A stretch of DNA of 64,000 nt from Clostridium sp. Cult3 (GTDB lineage Bacteria > Bacillota > Clostridia > Tissierellales > Tepidimicrobiaceae): the NCBI RefSeq assembly GCF_021655115.1, contig NZ_PPXY01000023.1, positions 1 to 64,000 on the forward strand, in the 5' to 3' direction. Made by a program: the position numbers and the translations under genes. Below the pieces are notes generated by a model. The model had not been told where the DNA came from, searched no databases, and saw only the letters and a program-made list of their open reading frames with translations. The stretch's first letter is position 1, and each line of letters opens with the position of its first letter. Of this stretch, positions 24,505 to 40,088 are shown piece after piece.

Positions 24505-24987
24505 CTAAATGACCTTAACGCCATGTCCAATTGTTTTTACCAATAATGAACCGTCTTCTGCATCTAACTCAATAGTTCTACCATAGTTTCCACCAGTATC
24601 CTCAGAGATGATTCTAATGTTTAATTCCTTTAACTTTTCTTTGGTAGCTTGTATGTTTCTTTCTCCAATTTTTAATATACTACTATTGTTGTTAAAGGAA
24701 AACATTTGAGCACCACCAACAATCTTTGCAATTAGTCTCTCTTTTACAGCCCCTTCTTTAACCATCCTTGCTATCAATAACTCAATACCCGTATCAGCAA
24801 ATTTAGCTTTATTTTCGTTGTTTTTTATCTCCTTACTAGAAGGTAACATAATATGAGCTAAACCTGCAACTCTATTAGGTTTATCATATAAAGCTATACC
24901 TACACATGAACCTAAGCCAAGAGTTGTCAATATCCCAGGTGCTTTAATCACGTTTAAATCTGCCATTCCAACTTTAATAACTCCCAT
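24505..24987 (-). CDS. cheD: Chemoreceptor glutamine deamidase CheD
   Basis: A 160-residue CheD that deamidates receptor glutamines and, in B. subtilis, binds CheC to adjust adaptation. The catalytic Cys lies in LGLGSCVGIALYD (near residue 28) and the His in GLAHIMLP (near 46). The later AKIVGGAQMFSF and GRTIELDAEDGSLLVK segments match the family. It is next to cheC, two bases downstream, which supports the functional pair. Confidence 0.96.
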   Translation of the reverse strand: MGVIKVGMADLNVIKAPGILTTLGLGSCVGIALYDKPNRVAGLAHIMLPSSKEIKNNENKAKFADTGIELLIARMVKEGAVKERLIAKIVGGAQMFSFNNNSSILKIGERNIQATKEKLKELNIRIISEDTGGNYGRTIELDAEDGSLLVKTIGHGVKVI

Positions 24988-24988
24988 A

Positions 24989-25597
24989 TTACAATACCCC
25001 TAAACTCGATAGTATTTTTTCAAAAGAGCTCATATCCGGTAATAAAAACAGATTGCCCTTTACAGTATTTTCCCCTTCCTCAAATACAGTTTCAATAAAT
25101 AAAACTTGATCAGCGATACAACCAAATTGAATAGCCGGTACACTTAAAATCGCTCCTGCCATATCTATGGCTAAAGATGGTACAGAAACTGTTATTTTTA
25201 GTCCCGTTAAAGCACTCAAAGAATTAACATAGGAAGAAGCTAATATATTACCCACCTCTGATAACGCAGAGATGGCCATAGGATCTAATTCCTCTACGGT
25301 GTAATCTCTATTTAATAACATATTGGTTAAATTGATAGCCGATTCTATATCCAATATAAACATTATATTTCCCTCAACTTCATCATTAAGATCTAGATAT
25401 ATACCAGCAACCAGTTCCTCTTCTCCCCCCAATACCGCTGCAACCTCATTAAATTCTAAAATTCTTACCTGAGGCACACTCATATCTACACGTTTAGACA
25501 ACATGCTCGATAAGGCTGTAACGGCATTTCCAGAGCCAATATTACCTATCTCTCCTAATACATCTATCATCATATTGTTTAAGTTTTCCACATCCAT
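24989..25597 (-). CDS. cheC: CheY-P phosphatase CheC
   Basis: A 202-residue CheC with the two signature half-sites: LGEIGNIGSGNAVTALSSML near residue 15 and LSEVGNILASSYVNSLSALTG near 110, each supplying the Glu and Asn used to dephosphorylate CheY-P. The size and two-site arrangement are those of CheC, not of the one-site CheX. Activity is boosted by CheD, encoded next. Its paralogue FliY, encoded upstream in the same operon, carries the same double motif. Confidence 0.95.
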   Translation of the reverse strand: MDVENLNNMMIDVLGEIGNIGSGNAVTALSSMLSKRVDMSVPQVRILEFNEVAAVLGGEEELVAGIYLDLNDEVEGNIMFILDIESAINLTNMLLNRDYTVEELDPMAISALSEVGNILASSYVNSLSALTGLKITVSVPSLAIDMAGAILSVPAIQFGCIADQVLFIETVFEEGENTVKGNLFLLPDMSSFEKILSSLGVL

Positions 25598-25610: not shown

Positions 25611-26042
25611 TTAATATTCCAATATTTTAGATAGGTTTAATAGGATAATTAACCTATCTGAGGTTTTACCTATTCCACTTACATATTCTATGAATTTGTT
25701 ATTTTCACTTGTAGGAGGCTTGTCTATATTTTCCTTACGGATTTCTAACACCTCCGAAGAAGAGTCGACGATTAATCCTGCAACTATATCATCTACCGTA
25801 ACGATGACTATTCGAGAGTTTTTATCTACCTCTTGTTCTTCCATGCCTAGTTTTCTTCTCAAATTTATTACGGGAATTACTTCACCTCTTAAATTAGTTA
25901 CACCTGTAACATGATCGGGTGCATTAGGCACCCTAGTGGTTTTGCCCATCTTTTCTATGGATATTACATTATATATAGGTAAACCATAATATTCTTCACC
26001 TAATTTAGATATTACATATTTATTTTCAGCTTCAGAAGACAT
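25611..26042 (-). CDS. cheW: Chemotaxis coupling protein CheW
   Basis: A 143-residue SH3-like adaptor linking chemoreceptors to CheA. The sequence has the family shape: YVISKLGEEYYGLPIYNV, IEKMGKTTRVPNAPDHVTGVTNLRGEVIPVINLR (read in short parts), RIVIVTVDD and the final SDRLIILLNLSKIL. The NLRGEVIPVI stretch that contacts receptor and CheA is intact. It follows cheA by 13 bases. Confidence 0.97.
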   Translation of the reverse strand: MSSEAENKYVISKLGEEYYGLPIYNVISIEKMGKTTRVPNAPDHVTGVTNLRGEVIPVINLRRKLGMEEQEVDKNSRIVIVTVDDIVAGLIVDSSSEVLEIRKENIDKPPTSENNKFIEYVSGIGKTSDRLIILLNLSKILEY

Positions 26043-26055
26043 AGCCGGTCCTCCT

Positions 26056-28431
26056 TTATATCAATGAATTTACATCTAGTATTAGCGAAATACTACCATT
26101 CCCTAATATGGTAGCTCCTGATAGATATTTTATATTTGATAGGTATTTGCCCATAGGCTTTATAACTATTTCCTGTTGACCTATTAAGCTATCTACCAAT
26201 AAACCTGCTTGTTTTTCTCCCTTTTGTACTACTACCACTACATATTCATCAGAAAAATCATTAGACTCAATGTTCATAAGCTGATTTAGTTTCACTACAG
26301 GAATTGTTTTCCCTCTATACAACATTATTTCTTGACCTTGGATGTTTCTAATACTATCCTTTTTGATATCCGTAATTTCCGTAATGGAACTTAGAGGTAT
26401 AGCATATATTTCATCCCCTAATCTAACTAATAATGCCTGTATAATTGCAAGGGTCAGAGGAATTCTAATGATAAATTTAGTTCCAGAGTGAAGTTTTGTA
26501 TCTATTTCAACAGATCCATTTATTGATTCTATCTTACTTTTAACTACATCTAAACCTACACCTCTCCCTGAAATATCAGAAACCTCATTGGAGGTACTAA
26601 ATCCCGGAGTAAATAATAAAGCAATTATCTCTTCTTCACTAAGCATATCTCCTTCCTGCTCAGTTATAATTCCTTTTTGTATTGCTTTGTCTCTAATTAC
26701 CGTAGAATCTATACCCCTTCCATCGTCAACAACTTCAATAACCACATTATTGCCATCGGGGTAGGCCTTGAGTATTACAGTTCCTTCTTTTGGCTTGCCT
26801 TGTTGAGCCCTCTCCTGTGGCATTTCTATACCATGATCGATAGAGTTTCTAATTATGTGAATCAAAGGATCTCCTATTTCGTCAATAACGGTTCTATCCA
26901 CTTCTGTATCCTCGCCAGACATTTGAAGATCTATCTCCTTGTTTAGCTCCTTAGATAAATCCCGTACCATTCGTGGAAACCTATTAAATACTCGCTCTAT
27001 AGGTACCATTCGTACTTTCATGACTGCATCATGAAGACTTGTAGTTATCCTTTCTAAGTATTCAATTGCTTCTACCATATTATCCTTATTAGATGTTTCG
27101 CTTAAATCATCCATTCTAGTCTTTATTATTATTAACTCCGATACAAGGTTCATTAAATTATCCAAACGATCAATATCTACTCTGACAGTTTTTCCGATTC
27201 TATTTTCTCGACTTACAATATTAGATTTCTTATCTTTTGAAACACCGCTAGTTTTTTTATCATCACTTTTTGTTTTGAGATTTATTCCTTTTCGTTGCAA
27301 TCCCACATTAACTTCTTCTACTGGAGTAAGTGCTACACTATCGACTTCAGCTATACTTTCCAATTCCCTCCTCAACTTATATTGGTCAACTTTGGCAATC
27401 AAAATAACTGTAAAACTTAAATCAAACTTTTCATCTTCAATATCCTCTACCGGAGGATTAGAATATATTATATCTCCCATAGATTCTAATGTATTAAAAA
27501 TAATAAAAGCCCTAGCTGACTTTAGCATACATTGAGAATTCAAACCTATATCTATTTTATATGAGGTCAATCCTTTGTTCTTTGCCTCACCTACCAGATT
27601 TAGTACATATTCATCTAATTCCCCTATTTGTTTCTTTTCTTTCATGCCTATATTCTTTTTATACCCAGTAAAATCTTTATCTTTCATAGTATTTATATGG
27701 ATGCTATCAATCTCGGCTATACTCTCTAATCCTTTTTGTATTGTTTCTTGATTTTCTTGCGAAATCAATACAATAGTAAAACTTAAATCAAACTTTTCAT
27801 CCTCAATGTCCTCTACTGAAGGATTGGAATATATTATATCTCCCATAGATTCTAGCGTATTAAAGACAATAAAGGCTCGAGCTGACTTTAGCATGCATTG
27901 GGGATTTAAACTTATATCTATTTTATATGAGACCAATCCCCTCTTTTCCGCCTCTTGAATGGCTTTTATTGCATATTGACTTAGTTCTGTATCTTCTACA
28001 CTGTTAAGTTTGGTTTCGTCGTATATTTCTGGCTCTTTTATATCTTTATTAATTATAGCTCTTAATCTATTTACTAAATCTTCATGACTATCTTCAGCTT
28101 CTTCACCATTAACGGCTATAAAGTTAACAGAATAGTCTAGGTTATCAAAGCACTCAAATATAATATCTATTATGCTTTCATCGAGGGTAATAGTATTGTT
28201 TCTAATTTCCTGAAGTACATTTTCCATTTCGTGTGTTAAGTTAGCGATATTTGTAAATCCCATGGTACCTGCCATACCTTTTAAGGTATGGGCAACTCTA
28301 AATATCTCATTAATTAGAGATTCATTGGTAATATCCTTTTCAAGTTCTAACAATGCTTCATTCATATTTTGTAGATGTTCTTTCGTTTCCTCTACAAATA
28401 CGTCTACATATTGATTAAAATCTAGATCCAT
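26056..28431 (-). CDS. cheA: Chemotaxis histidine kinase CheA with two tandem P2 domains
   Basis: A 791-residue kinase phosphorylating CheY and CheB. P1 (1-110) has the phosphorylated His48 in RVAHTLKGMAG. Two P2 response-regulator docking domains follow: about 150-249 and 272-371. They share about 51 of 58 core residues and their DNA is about 88% identical over some 165 bases (27410-27575 against 27776-27941; offset 366 bases). A charged linker (375-415), the P3 dimerisation helices, the P4 ATPase (HIIRNSIDHGIE, DDGRGID, GRGVGLDVVKS) and the CheW-like P5 complete it. Family members usually have one P2, so this one is longer by one unit. It lies between cheB and cheW. Confidence 0.97.
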   Translation of the reverse strand: MDLDFNQYVDVFVEETKEHLQNMNEALLELEKDITNESLINEIFRVAHTLKGMAGTMGFTNIANLTHEMENVLQEIRNNTITLDESIIDIIFECFDNLDYSVNFIAVNGEEAEDSHEDLVNRLRAIINKDIKEPEIYDETKLNSVEDTELSQYAIKAIQEAEKRGLVSYKIDISLNPQCMLKSARAFIVFNTLESMGDIIYSNPSVEDIEDEKFDLSFTIVLISQENQETIQKGLESIAEIDSIHINTMKDKDFTGYKKNIGMKEKKQIGELDEYVLNLVGEAKNKGLTSYKIDIGLNSQCMLKSARAFIIFNTLESMGDIIYSNPPVEDIEDEKFDLSFTVILIAKVDQYKLRRELESIAEVDSVALTPVEEVNVGLQRKGINLKTKSDDKKTSGVSKDKKSNIVSRENRIGKTVRVDIDRLDNLMNLVSELIIIKTRMDDLSETSNKDNMVEAIEYLERITTSLHDAVMKVRMVPIERVFNRFPRMVRDLSKELNKEIDLQMSGEDTEVDRTVIDEIGDPLIHIIRNSIDHGIEMPQERAQQGKPKEGTVILKAYPDGNNVVIEVVDDGRGIDSTVIRDKAIQKGIITEQEGDMLSEEEIIALLFTPGFSTSNEVSDISGRGVGLDVVKSKIESINGSVEIDTKLHSGTKFIIRIPLTLAIIQALLVRLGDEIYAIPLSSITEITDIKKDSIRNIQGQEIMLYRGKTIPVVKLNQLMNIESNDFSDEYVVVVVQKGEKQAGLLVDSLIGQQEIVIKPMGKYLSNIKYLSGATILGNGSISLILDVNSLI
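27410..27941 (-). repeat. Direct repeat encoding duplicated CheA P2 domain
   Basis: Two copies of about 165 bases with an offset of 366 bases (122 codons), in frame inside cheA. I count about 19 differences in the aligned core, roughly 88% identity. The flanks of each domain differ much more, so the similarity is concentrated in the middle of the P2 fold, as expected after a recent duplication or repeated gene conversion. Confidence 0.9.
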
Positions 28432-28433
28432 AA

Positions 28434-29480
28434 TTACACCCCCACTATACTCACAATTTCGTGAGCAATATTGTCCAAAGGAACTATTTTATCGATATGA
28501 TTAGTATCAATTGCAGACTTAGGCATACCAAATACTACGGAAGAGTCTTTATCCTGAGCTATAGTATAACCTTTTGATTTTTTTATTTGAATAACACCTT
28601 TGGAACCATCAATACCCATTCCCGTCATAACAATCCCTATCTTTTTATAATGTTCTAATCTAGCTATCGATTCCATTAGTATGTCTACTGCAGGTCTTAG
28701 GCCTTTTATAGGTGGTTCCTTGCTAAGCCTAATGATGTTTTGTCCATCTTCATTCCTTATTCTCATATGAAAATCACCAGGCGCTATATAACAATGCCCC
28801 CTTTTTAAAACATCTCCATTCTCTCCTTCTTTCACCTTAATACTAGATAATACATCTAATCTATCTGCTAATGATTTAGTGAAATTAGGTGGCATGTGTT
28901 GTACAACCAATATAGCTCCATTTAAATTTTCAGGCAATAAAGGTATTACACTTTGTAATGCTCGAGGACCACCTGTTGAAGTACCTATTGCTACTATATA
29001 TTCATACCCATCTGTCATGATAGATCGGGCATAGTCCTGTCTAGTGATTTTAGGTATATTCCTTTTGTTATTGTTAAGCTTAACTTTAGATTCTGCGACA
29101 GATTTTATCTTGTTTATTATTTCACGTTTTATAGGCTCAGCATTTATTCCAAATATATTTTTAGGTTTTGCAATAAAATCTACTGCCCCCATTTCTAATG
29201 CTTTTAAAGTATGACAAGCTCCTTCCTCTGTCAAGCTACTAATCATTATTACAGGAATATGATATTGTTCAACTATATATTTTAAAGTTGTTATTCCATC
29301 CATTATAGGCATTTCAATATCTAAAGTAATAACATCCGGATTCAATAAGGGAATTTTTTCCAAAGCTTCCTTCCCGTCCTTAGCTTCACCTACTACGGAA
29401 ATTTCTTCGTCTTCTTGTAATATATCTGTTAATATTTTACGCATAAATAGAGAATCATCTACTACTAGTAGTTTTATCAA
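28434..29480 (-). CDS. cheB: Chemotaxis methylesterase CheB
   Basis: A 348-residue two-domain response regulator that removes methyl groups from receptors. The receiver domain (1-120) has VVDDSLFMR, the phosphorylated Asp in LDIEMPIMDG near residue 54 and the AVDFIAKP loop. The C-terminal methylesterase domain (about 155-345) has the catalytic Ser in GTSTGGPRAL, His in VQHMPPNFT and Asp in MTGMGIDGSKG. It is 2 bases from cheA. The matching methyltransferase gene cheR is not in the window. Confidence 0.97.
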   Translation of the reverse strand: MIKLLVVDDSLFMRKILTDILQEDEEISVVGEAKDGKEALEKIPLLNPDVITLDIEMPIMDGITTLKYIVEQYHIPVIMISSLTEEGACHTLKALEMGAVDFIAKPKNIFGINAEPIKREIINKIKSVAESKVKLNNNKRNIPKITRQDYARSIMTDGYEYIVAIGTSTGGPRALQSVIPLLPENLNGAILVVQHMPPNFTKSLADRLDVLSSIKVKEGENGDVLKRGHCYIAPGDFHMRIRNEDGQNIIRLSKEPPIKGLRPAVDILMESIARLEHYKKIGIVMTGMGIDGSKGVIQIKKSKGYTIAQDKDSSVVFGMPKSAIDTNHIDKIVPLDNIAHEIVSIVGV

Positions 29481-37568: not shown

Positions 37569-37931
37569 TTAGCTCAAGACCTTTTTTACAGCTTCTATGA
37601 CTCTATCAGCTTGGAAGGGCTTTACAATAAAATCCTTAGCCCCTGCTTGTATTGCCTCTATAACCATAGCTTGCTGTCCCATTGCAGAACACATTACTAT
37701 TTTTGCATTTCCATCTATATTCTTTATTTCCCTTACAGCTTGAATTCCATCCATCTCTGGCATTGTAATATCCATTATAACCAATTCTGGGTTTAGTTCT
37801 TTAAATTTTTCTACTGCTTTTACTCCATTTTCAGCTTCTCCCACTACTTGAAAACCATTTTTTGTGAGGATGTCTTTTATCATCATCCTCATAAATGAAG
37901 CATCATCTACGATTAAAATTCCTTTTGCCAT
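37569..37931 (-). CDS. cheY: Chemotaxis response regulator CheY
   Basis: A 120-residue stand-alone receiver domain. Conserved residues are the acidic pair in ILIVDDASFMR near residues 9-10, the phosphorylated Asp in LVIMDITMPEMDG near 53-54, Thr/Ser in MCSAMG near 83 and Lys in FIVKPF near 104. CheA phosphorylates it; CheC and FliY remove the phosphate. Encoded between fliY and fliO, as in B. subtilis. Confidence 0.97.
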   Translation of the reverse strand: MAKGILIVDDASFMRMMIKDILTKNGFQVVGEAENGVKAVEKFKELNPELVIMDITMPEMDGIQAVREIKNIDGNAKIVMCSAMGQQAMVIEAIQAGAKDFIVKPFQADRVIEAVKKVLS

Positions 37932-37963: not shown

Positions 37964-39103
37964 TTACTTGCCATAGGAATTGTCTATATCCGTTATTCTT
38001 ATGCCAAAATTATCATCGATTACAACGACTTCTCCTTTTGCAATATATTTTCCATTTGCATAGATATTCAAAGGCTCCCCAACTAACTTATCCAATTCCA
38101 CTACAGTACCTGGGCCATATTCTAATATCTCACCAATTTTTTTGGTAGTTCTTCCTAGTTCAGCAGTAATCTCAACTGGTATATCACCAACTAAATCAAT
38201 AGATTCATTATAACTGACATCAACATCGGTGTCAAAGGTTTCAAACTGCGGTTTTTTAATGACTACAGGGTCTTTTTTATCTTTATCAAACTCTTTTTCC
38301 CTTATAGGCGTTTCTTCTATAGTTGCATTATAACTATCTATACCCTTTTCTACTAAATTATTTGGACTATCTAGATTATATTCATCTTCGTAATCCATAG
38401 AATTTGCGGTCTCTACATCTTGATCTTGAGAAGTATCCCCTAATAGATTTTCTACCATATCCTGTCCAAATTCTAAAGGTATTAATTGCATAAGTTCACT
38501 ATCTATTAAATCATCAACGATCATTTTAAAGGACACTTTAATTATAGGATCAGAACTTTTTAAAACTTCTAAAGTTTCCCTTCCTTCATCAAAAGTTATT
38601 TCATATGATTTTGGAGGCTCAATATCTATTTTTTTCATAAATATTTCCGATAAAGAAGTACATGCGGAACCCATCATCTGGTTCATTACCTCCGATATAG
38701 CGCTTAAATCCAACTCTGTTAATTCCCTATCTGTATCTATTTCATTGTTTCCCAACATTATGTCGGTTATTATTTTTACATCATCTACATTTATCATCAA
38801 TACATTTGAACCTTCAAATCCTTCCCTATACTTTACATCAACTGCAACAAATGGAATCGGATACTCGTAGGAAAGCTCTCCAGTAGTAGTTACTGTAACC
38901 GTTGGAGTTGTAATTATGACTTTTCTATTTAATAGAGTGGATAAAGTTGTTGCAGCAGTTCCCATGCTTATATTGCCAATTTCGCCTATTGTATCTTTTT
39001 CAATTTCCGATACTACATCATTTTCAACATAATCCTCATTTATATCCTCTGTACCTTTTAGTAGAGAATCAATTTCTTCTTGCGAAAGCATGTCTTTAGT
39101 CAT
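37964..39103 (-). CDS. fliY: Flagellar switch protein FliY (CheC-like domain plus FliN domain)
   Basis: About 379 residues. An N-terminal EIDSLL motif in MLSQEEIDSLLKG resembles the CheY-P-binding peptide of FliM. The CheC-like phosphatase domain has two sites, GEIGNISMGTAATTL near 40 and ISEVMNQMMGSACTSL near 135. A long acidic linker (about 235-295) leads to the C-terminal FliN/SpoA domain (VEITAELGRTTKKIGEILEYGPG). It is both a C-ring component and a CheY-P phosphatase in B. subtilis. The start is one of several in-frame ATGs at 39103-39115; all overlap the end of fliM, so the exact start is uncertain. Confidence 0.94.
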   Translation of the reverse strand: MTKDMLSQEEIDSLLKGTEDINEDYVENDVVSEIEKDTIGEIGNISMGTAATTLSTLLNRKVIITTPTVTVTTTGELSYEYPIPFVAVDVKYREGFEGSNVLMINVDDVKIITDIMLGNNEIDTDRELTELDLSAISEVMNQMMGSACTSLSEIFMKKIDIEPPKSYEITFDEGRETLEVLKSSDPIIKVSFKMIVDDLIDSELMQLIPLEFGQDMVENLLGDTSQDQDVETANSMDYEDEYNLDSPNNLVEKGIDSYNATIEETPIREKEFDKDKKDPVVIKKPQFETFDTDVDVSYNESIDLVGDIPVEITAELGRTTKKIGEILEYGPGTVVELDKLVGEPLNIYANGKYIAKGEVVVIDDNFGIRITDIDNSYGK

Positions 39104-40088
39104 ATTCATCACCATCCTTTACAACCTTTGCTATTTTAATTGCCATCTTATTTCTAGATACACCAATATCGCCTAAAAATTTGATCTGGGAGCCAATTCT
39201 AACCCTAGCCCTTTCATCTGTGCTTCTATTTAATTTTACTACATCTCCTTCTTGCAAATCCAAAACATCTCTTATTCTCACAAAAGTTGAACCCAATTCA
39301 ACTTTTACTGGCACTCTTGTCTCTAACATTCTTTCCTTTATAGCCAACATTTCCTTTTCGGATAATTCCTTCTGTTCTGTTGAAAACCAATATTTAGTAC
39401 TAAGTTTATCTAATATTGGTTCGATAACAAGATGGGGTATACAAACATTTAACATTCCTTCTGTTGAACCAACTTCTATATTCAAGGTCACAAGAGCAAT
39501 AGTTTCATTCGGAGGCACTATTTGAGCAAATTGTGGATTGACTTCAATCTTATCTAACGTTGGTTTCAATTGGATTACATTACCCCAAGCTTCTTGGATA
39601 ATAGGCATTATCTTTTCTATCATACTATCTAGCAATGATAATTCTATTTCAGTAAATGCCCTAATTTCTTGTTTCTCGGTACCGTCTCCACCTAAAAGCC
39701 TATCTAATATGGAGTATACAACATTTGTTGATATATCCATGAGGATTTGACCATTCAATGGTCTGAAATCAATTATGCTTAAAAATGCTGGATTAGAGAT
39801 TGCATTGCTAAATTCATTATAGGCGAATTGATCTACAGTTAAAATTGATATCTTGACTGGTGCTCTTAAGTATCCAGACAAAAATGTTTGGAGTAGTCTA
39901 CCAAAGTTTTCATGGATTATTTCCAATGTTCTTAATTGGTCCTTTGCTATTTTTTGTGGATTCCTGAAATCGTACTTTTTTACTTTGGTTGAACTTTCTA
40001 CCTCTTGTATTTCTTCGACATCTACTTCTCCAGAACTCAAAGCTTGAAGTAGTGCATCAATTTCATTTTGTGATAGTACTTCAGACAA
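39096..40088 (-). CDS. fliM: Flagellar motor switch protein FliM
   Basis: A 330-residue C-ring protein that binds CheY-P and controls rotation direction. The N-terminal peptide LSQNEIDALLQALSSGEVD is the CheY-P-binding motif. The middle domain (about 40-230) includes HENFGRLLQTFLSGYLRAPVKI in parts and the GGDGTE motif near residue 130; the C-terminal SpoA domain covers 255-325. The protein has the normal length. Its end overlaps the start region of fliY. Confidence 0.97.
   Translation of the reverse strand: MSEVLSQNEIDALLQALSSGEVDVEEIQEVESSTKVKKYDFRNPQKIAKDQLRTLEIIHENFGRLLQTFLSGYLRAPVKISILTVDQFAYNEFSNAISNPAFLSIIDFRPLNGQILMDISTNVVYSILDRLLGGDGTEKQEIRAFTEIELSLLDSMIEKIMPIIQEAWGNVIQLKPTLDKIEVNPQFAQIVPPNETIALVTLNIEVGSTEGMLNVCIPHLVIEPILDKLSTKYWFSTEQKELSEKEMLAIKERMLETRVPVKVELGSTFVRIRDVLDLQEGDVVKLNRSTDERARVRIGSQIKFLGDIGVSRNKMAIKIAKVVKDGDEYD

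Follow-up and report, generated by a model that had tools for sequence, protein, structure and literature searches.

The P2 domain of the chemotaxis kinase CheA is a binding site for CheY, with a sub-micromolar Kd of about 0.5 uM in E. coli (PMC5705603), and deletion of P2 leads to slower phosphotransfer, the domain itself being non-essential (main text of PMC10782961). The CheA of Thermotoga maritima has one P2, known from its complex with CheY (PDB 1u0s). Borrelia burgdorferi CheA2 has two in tandem (P2alpha and P2beta), joined by a short linker of 18 residues and accompanied by an extended P3 (PMC10703414; PMC10782961, main text), and these two copies share 26% identity (PMC10703414). According to the main text of PMC10782961, this duplication is present in all Borreliales, and several other independent duplications of P2 or CheY-binding domains have occurred among CheA proteins. 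Long-lasting concerted evolution has also been described in prokaryotes, where paralogues are closer within than between species (PMC6053082).

Here, we describe the CheA encoded in a window of 64,000 nt from Clostridium sp. Cult3 (contig NZ_PPXY01000023.1; genome G000), together with its orthologs in two members of one sister genus, a complete single-contig genome (G008) and a metagenome-assembled genome (MAG; G016). Whereas T. maritima CheA has one P2, the window CheA has two, both of the same fold and family as the T. maritima domain. As in B. burgdorferi the linker between them is short (about 22 residues), but the cores of the two copies are 90% identical in protein and 88% in DNA, and signs of conversion set the window clade apart from Borrelia, as the extended P3 sets Borrelia apart. 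CheA with a duplicated P2 is already documented, and the window clade is a further, clade-restricted case, situated in a B. subtilis-type chemotaxis operon. It is apparently independent of the Borreliales duplication, to judge from the sequences, because, among the matches listed, the remaining genomes sampled from the family, the order and the phylum have single P2 domains; the main text of PMC10782961 names neither a case in Tissierellia nor P2 homogenisation. What appears to be a new detail beyond the documented duplication is concerted evolution inside one CheA gene. As in the paralogues of PMC6053082, the copies are closer within than between genomes, but the exchanging units are domains within one gene and not paralogous genes. 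The evolutionary twist is modest, namely an old duplication whose copies are alike partly because DNA of one has replaced that of the other. Overall, we consider it probable that an old, shared tandem duplication of P2, conversion of its core and the presence of two equivalent docking sites together explain this locus.

The tandem P2 domains and their likely partners

The features discussed are the following:

26056..28431, minus strand: cheA, ORF of 791 residues with the architecture P1-P2a-P2b-P3-P4-P5 (ORF and Pfam domains)
28138..28413, minus strand: P1, Hpt phosphotransfer domain, residues 7-98 (PF01627, E 1.3e-19)
27694..27993, minus strand: P2a, first predicted response-regulator docking domain, residues 147-246 (PF07194; 1u0s_A, E 1.4e-10; model TM 0.95 to 1u0s_A)
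27775..27927, minus strand: P2a core, 51 codons, putatively homogenised segment (sequence comparison of the copies)
27628..27693, minus strand: linker between P2a and P2b, residues 247-268 (alignment of the copies)
27328..27627, minus strand: P2b, second predicted response-regulator docking domain, residues 269-368 (PF07194; 1u0s_A, E 1.3e-10)
27409..27561, minus strand: P2b core, 51 codons, putatively homogenised segment (sequence comparison of the copies)
27013..27192, minus strand: P3, dimerisation domain, residues 414-473 (PF02895)
26452..26871, minus strand: P4, ATPase domain, residues 521-660 (PF02518)
26059..26439, minus strand: P5, CheW-like domain, residues 665-791 (PF01584)
28434..29480, minus strand: cheB, predicted as a likely client of P2 (NF001965 CheB, above cut-off)
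25611..26042, minus strand: cheW (PF01584)
24989..25597, minus strand: cheC (PF04509)
24505..24987, minus strand: cheD (PF03975)
37569..37931, minus strand: cheY, stand-alone receiver of the flagellar operon, predicted as a likely client of P2 (PF00072; adjoins fliM/fliY)

A Pfam search placed Hpt, P2, P2, H-kinase_dim, HATPase_c and CheW in this order along the ORF, the four families other than P2 each scoring above its cut-off and in the order typical of CheA, and the translation contains an HTLKG motif with the predicted phosphorylatable histidine of P1. The P2 family matched twice between P1 and P3 (E 5.6e-55), with 104.1 and 95.9 bits for the two copies against a curated cut-off of 23. 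P2a and P2b are in register at an offset of 366 nt, or 122 codons, and their identity reaches its highest value, 87.9%, across a stretch of 165 nt, compared with only about 35-60% in the outer segments; an independent repeat search returned 84% over 199 nt (27390-27588 against 27756-27954). These results confirm the two P2 domains that the earlier note had recognised. P2a alone and P2b alone each matched the T. maritima structure 1u0s_A with E about 1e-10, and a model of P2a (pLDDT 90.5) agreed with it at an rmsd of 0.9 and a TM of 0.95 by target length, the fold being assigned from model and sequence for P2a and from sequence for P2b. The tandem P2 of the window CheA is real; the contig is continuous across both copies, and these differ at many sites, synonymous ones included.

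The operon resembles that of B. subtilis, with fliM, fliY, cheY, more fli/flh genes, cheB, cheA, cheW, cheC, cheD, a sigma factor gene and rpsB-tsf, and the order from flhB to tsf is the same in G008. One CheA, one CheB and one CheY-sized stand-alone receiver in the operon are found in the window genome; a receiver-domain search of this genome gave a single flagellar-operon CheY, as in relatives, and no CheV-sized frame was seen among its CheW matches. An extra CheY or CheV was thus ruled out as the cause of the second P2. In the same operon, FliM (window 39402-39974) seems N-truncated under an ATG-start rule. The fliM frame is open upstream, with a full-length FliM match and a NEIDALLQ motif, pointing to a non-ATG start, so that a candidate frameshift in fliM (39096-39740, seemingly N-truncated) was discarded as a start-codon effect.

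Most likely, the tandem P2 equips a single kinase with two equivalent sites for docking CheY/CheB. P2a and P2b would bind the same partners, CheY and probably CheB, and as flexibly tethered sites near P1, two per monomer and four per dimer, they would concentrate CheY, and perhaps CheB, locally; a similar proposal has been made for Borrelia CheA2 (PMC10703414). Alternatively, docking could be subfunctionalised, with P2a serving one response regulator (e.g., CheY) and P2b another (e.g., CheB), and the outer parts of the copies (the N-terminal helix and the last helix and strand) have diverged in a copy-specific manner across the two genera. We regard this as unlikely, since the core is kept alike by homogenisation, the flagellar operon has no additional CheY relative to single-P2 relatives, and the single-P2 CheAs of these relatives serve a similar gene set. 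Of the two effects on docking that the earlier note had put forward, a higher capacity is therefore plausible from the sequence, while separate binding of CheY and CheB is mildly disfavoured. Close genera with similar operons and either a single or a double P2 offer a natural comparison for the effect of P2 copy number on phosphotransfer.

Exchange between the P2 cores

The core (153 nt, i.e., 51 codons) and the flanks (117 nt) were delimited after viewing the alignment, so that the p values reported for them are descriptive, and for the conversion tests the segments are short and some dS values close to saturation. In the flanks, the topology tests accepted orthology of each copy across the genera and rejected the concerted tree (p-AU 0.0027), and the ratios of concerted to orthologous site patterns were 10:12, 4:13, and 3:13. 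The flanks also kept copy-specific signatures, NQY/SQY vs DEY and EI vs EV. In the core, by contrast, orthology was rejected (p-AU 0.0018) and the signal was that of concerted evolution, with site-pattern ratios of 12:0, 14:3, and 12:1. At conserved core residues, the same codon was used within genomes in 35/45 (window gene), 47/48, and 40/42 cases, compared with 58-66% for P3-P5 orthologs.

The synonymous core codons of G008 and G016 match within genomes far above the level between orthologs (Fisher p 2e-8 to 2e-5). The two P2 copies of G008 are 96% identical, and the core dS within genomes is 0.07 in G008 and 0.20 in G016, whose P2a was stitched from two contigs ending inside the repeat, so that the homogeneity of its copies may be overstated. 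By comparison, dS between the orthologous cores of G008 and G016 is 0.74-0.83, and that of their P3-P5 is 0.88. Synonymous likeness is thus higher within than between genomes, strongly so in G008 and G016 and suggestively in the window genome, and we take the sequence evidence for gene conversion of the core in the sister genus as decisive.

For the window's own lineage, the sequences are suggestive of core exchange between the copies. Core dS within the window gene is 0.72, against 1.3 to saturation for the comparison with sister-genus orthologs; a tree that pairs its two cores gains only 0.7 log-likelihood units on the alternatives, and none of the alternative placements relative to the sister genus was rejected by p-AU. 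For the 35/45 same-codon fraction, the codon bootstrap gave 8% for no excess, and the run-length test for this gene alone gave p 0.08. The core-concentrated conversion that the earlier note had read from this gene consequently holds for the clade, with the decisive signal lying in the sister genus and a suggestive one in the gene from which it had been proposed.

Core likeness could also reflect an old duplication without any conversion, maintained by purifying selection and AT-rich codon bias. Among relatives with a single P2, the core of the domain is conserved (mean protein identity 71%, vs 43-44% in the flanks), and much of the 88% identity of the window's own copies seems to be constraint, because orthologous cores of the two genera are already about 79-83% identical in DNA and the 88% lies only somewhat above this range. 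Core dN between the genera is low for both copies (0.04-0.09), indicating that both are under constraint. This explanation could account for the window gene taken alone, but for the clade we find it rather improbable, given the codon matching within G008 and G016 far beyond that of orthologs and the rejection of orthology by the core tree.

For our preferred reading of an old duplication with core conversion, the sequences show that the flanks have retained their copy-specific identity and that the central 51 codons were overwritten between the copies within the sister genus, through intragenic gene conversion or some comparable process. In the lineage of the window, a separate exchange at a later time is likely, though the signal is only suggestive. 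Purifying selection on the P2 core together with exchange would then hold the two sites alike. A stronger version, in which selection favours two identical docking sites and conversion has recurred in both lineages from before the genera split, keeping the cores identical as the edges diverge, may be entertained tentatively.

Age and distribution of the duplication

Comparison with the CheA of relatives, as the earlier note had proposed, revealed the duplication to be common to G008 and G016. Among the 20 genomes of the family sample, only these two and the window genome have a tandem P2, the CheA frame of G008 (788 residues) showing the same arrangement. P2 was found in 89/140 genomes of the order sample and in 166/199 of the phylum sample, and no further tandem pair was present among the matches listed for the P2-bearing genomes of the family, order, and phylum samples; where genomes had several P2 matches, those listed lay in separate frames. 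The window CheA is 78-80% identical in protein to that of the sister genus. In a P3-P5 tree, the three tandem-P2 proteins form one clade (support 97/92), within which G008 and G016 pair (99/96).

That the cores cluster by genome and that the G008 copies are nearly identical would also be expected if P2 had duplicated independently and recently in each genus, the cores being alike from youth and without conversion. We consider this quite improbable, since the topology of separate duplications was rejected for the core (descriptive p-AU 0.014) and for the flanks (descriptive p-AU 0.025), the flanks of the same proteins retain their copy-specific signatures, and the CheA tree joins the two genera as sisters, with a tandem P2 in no other sampled relative among the matches listed. 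Judging from these sequences, the duplication is older than the split of the window genus from its sister genus, because the tandem P2 is common to both genera and a separate origin in each is rejected by the trees. Despite the alike cores it is thus not recent, contrary to the description of the domain as recently duplicated in the earlier note, and the window copies themselves differ at core synonymous sites. The case of the CheA P2 shows that copy identity cannot date a domain duplication. We propose that, before the two genera separated, about 122 codons of an ordinary flagellar-operon CheA would have been duplicated in tandem and in frame, giving this kinase its second P2.

A false tandem copy produced by assembly, to which the breaks and the chimera inside the repeat of the G016 MAG might lend some support, is extremely improbable and is rejected as the origin of the second P2, because the window contig reads through two copies that differ at many sites and the complete one-contig genome G008 carries both in the same arrangement.

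The assembly of the G016 MAG breaks within the P2 repeat (contig parts G016:C169 5530-5747 and G016:C5 1-200), and one of its contig ends (record JAAYFV010000228.1) is a chimera in which the start of P2a is joined to the end of P2b. This is a repeat-induced misassembly in the public record, which itself shows that the cores are near-identical; short-read MAGs break or chimerise at loci such as the tandem P2. In G040, from another family of the order, a TGA stop lies within the CheA match and leaves a frame of 523 residues, which may represent either a sequencing error or a broken gene. Pieces of a second, broken CheA-like gene with several stops were found in G014 (G014:C7:157379-158206), a genome that also has an intact single-P2 CheA elsewhere.
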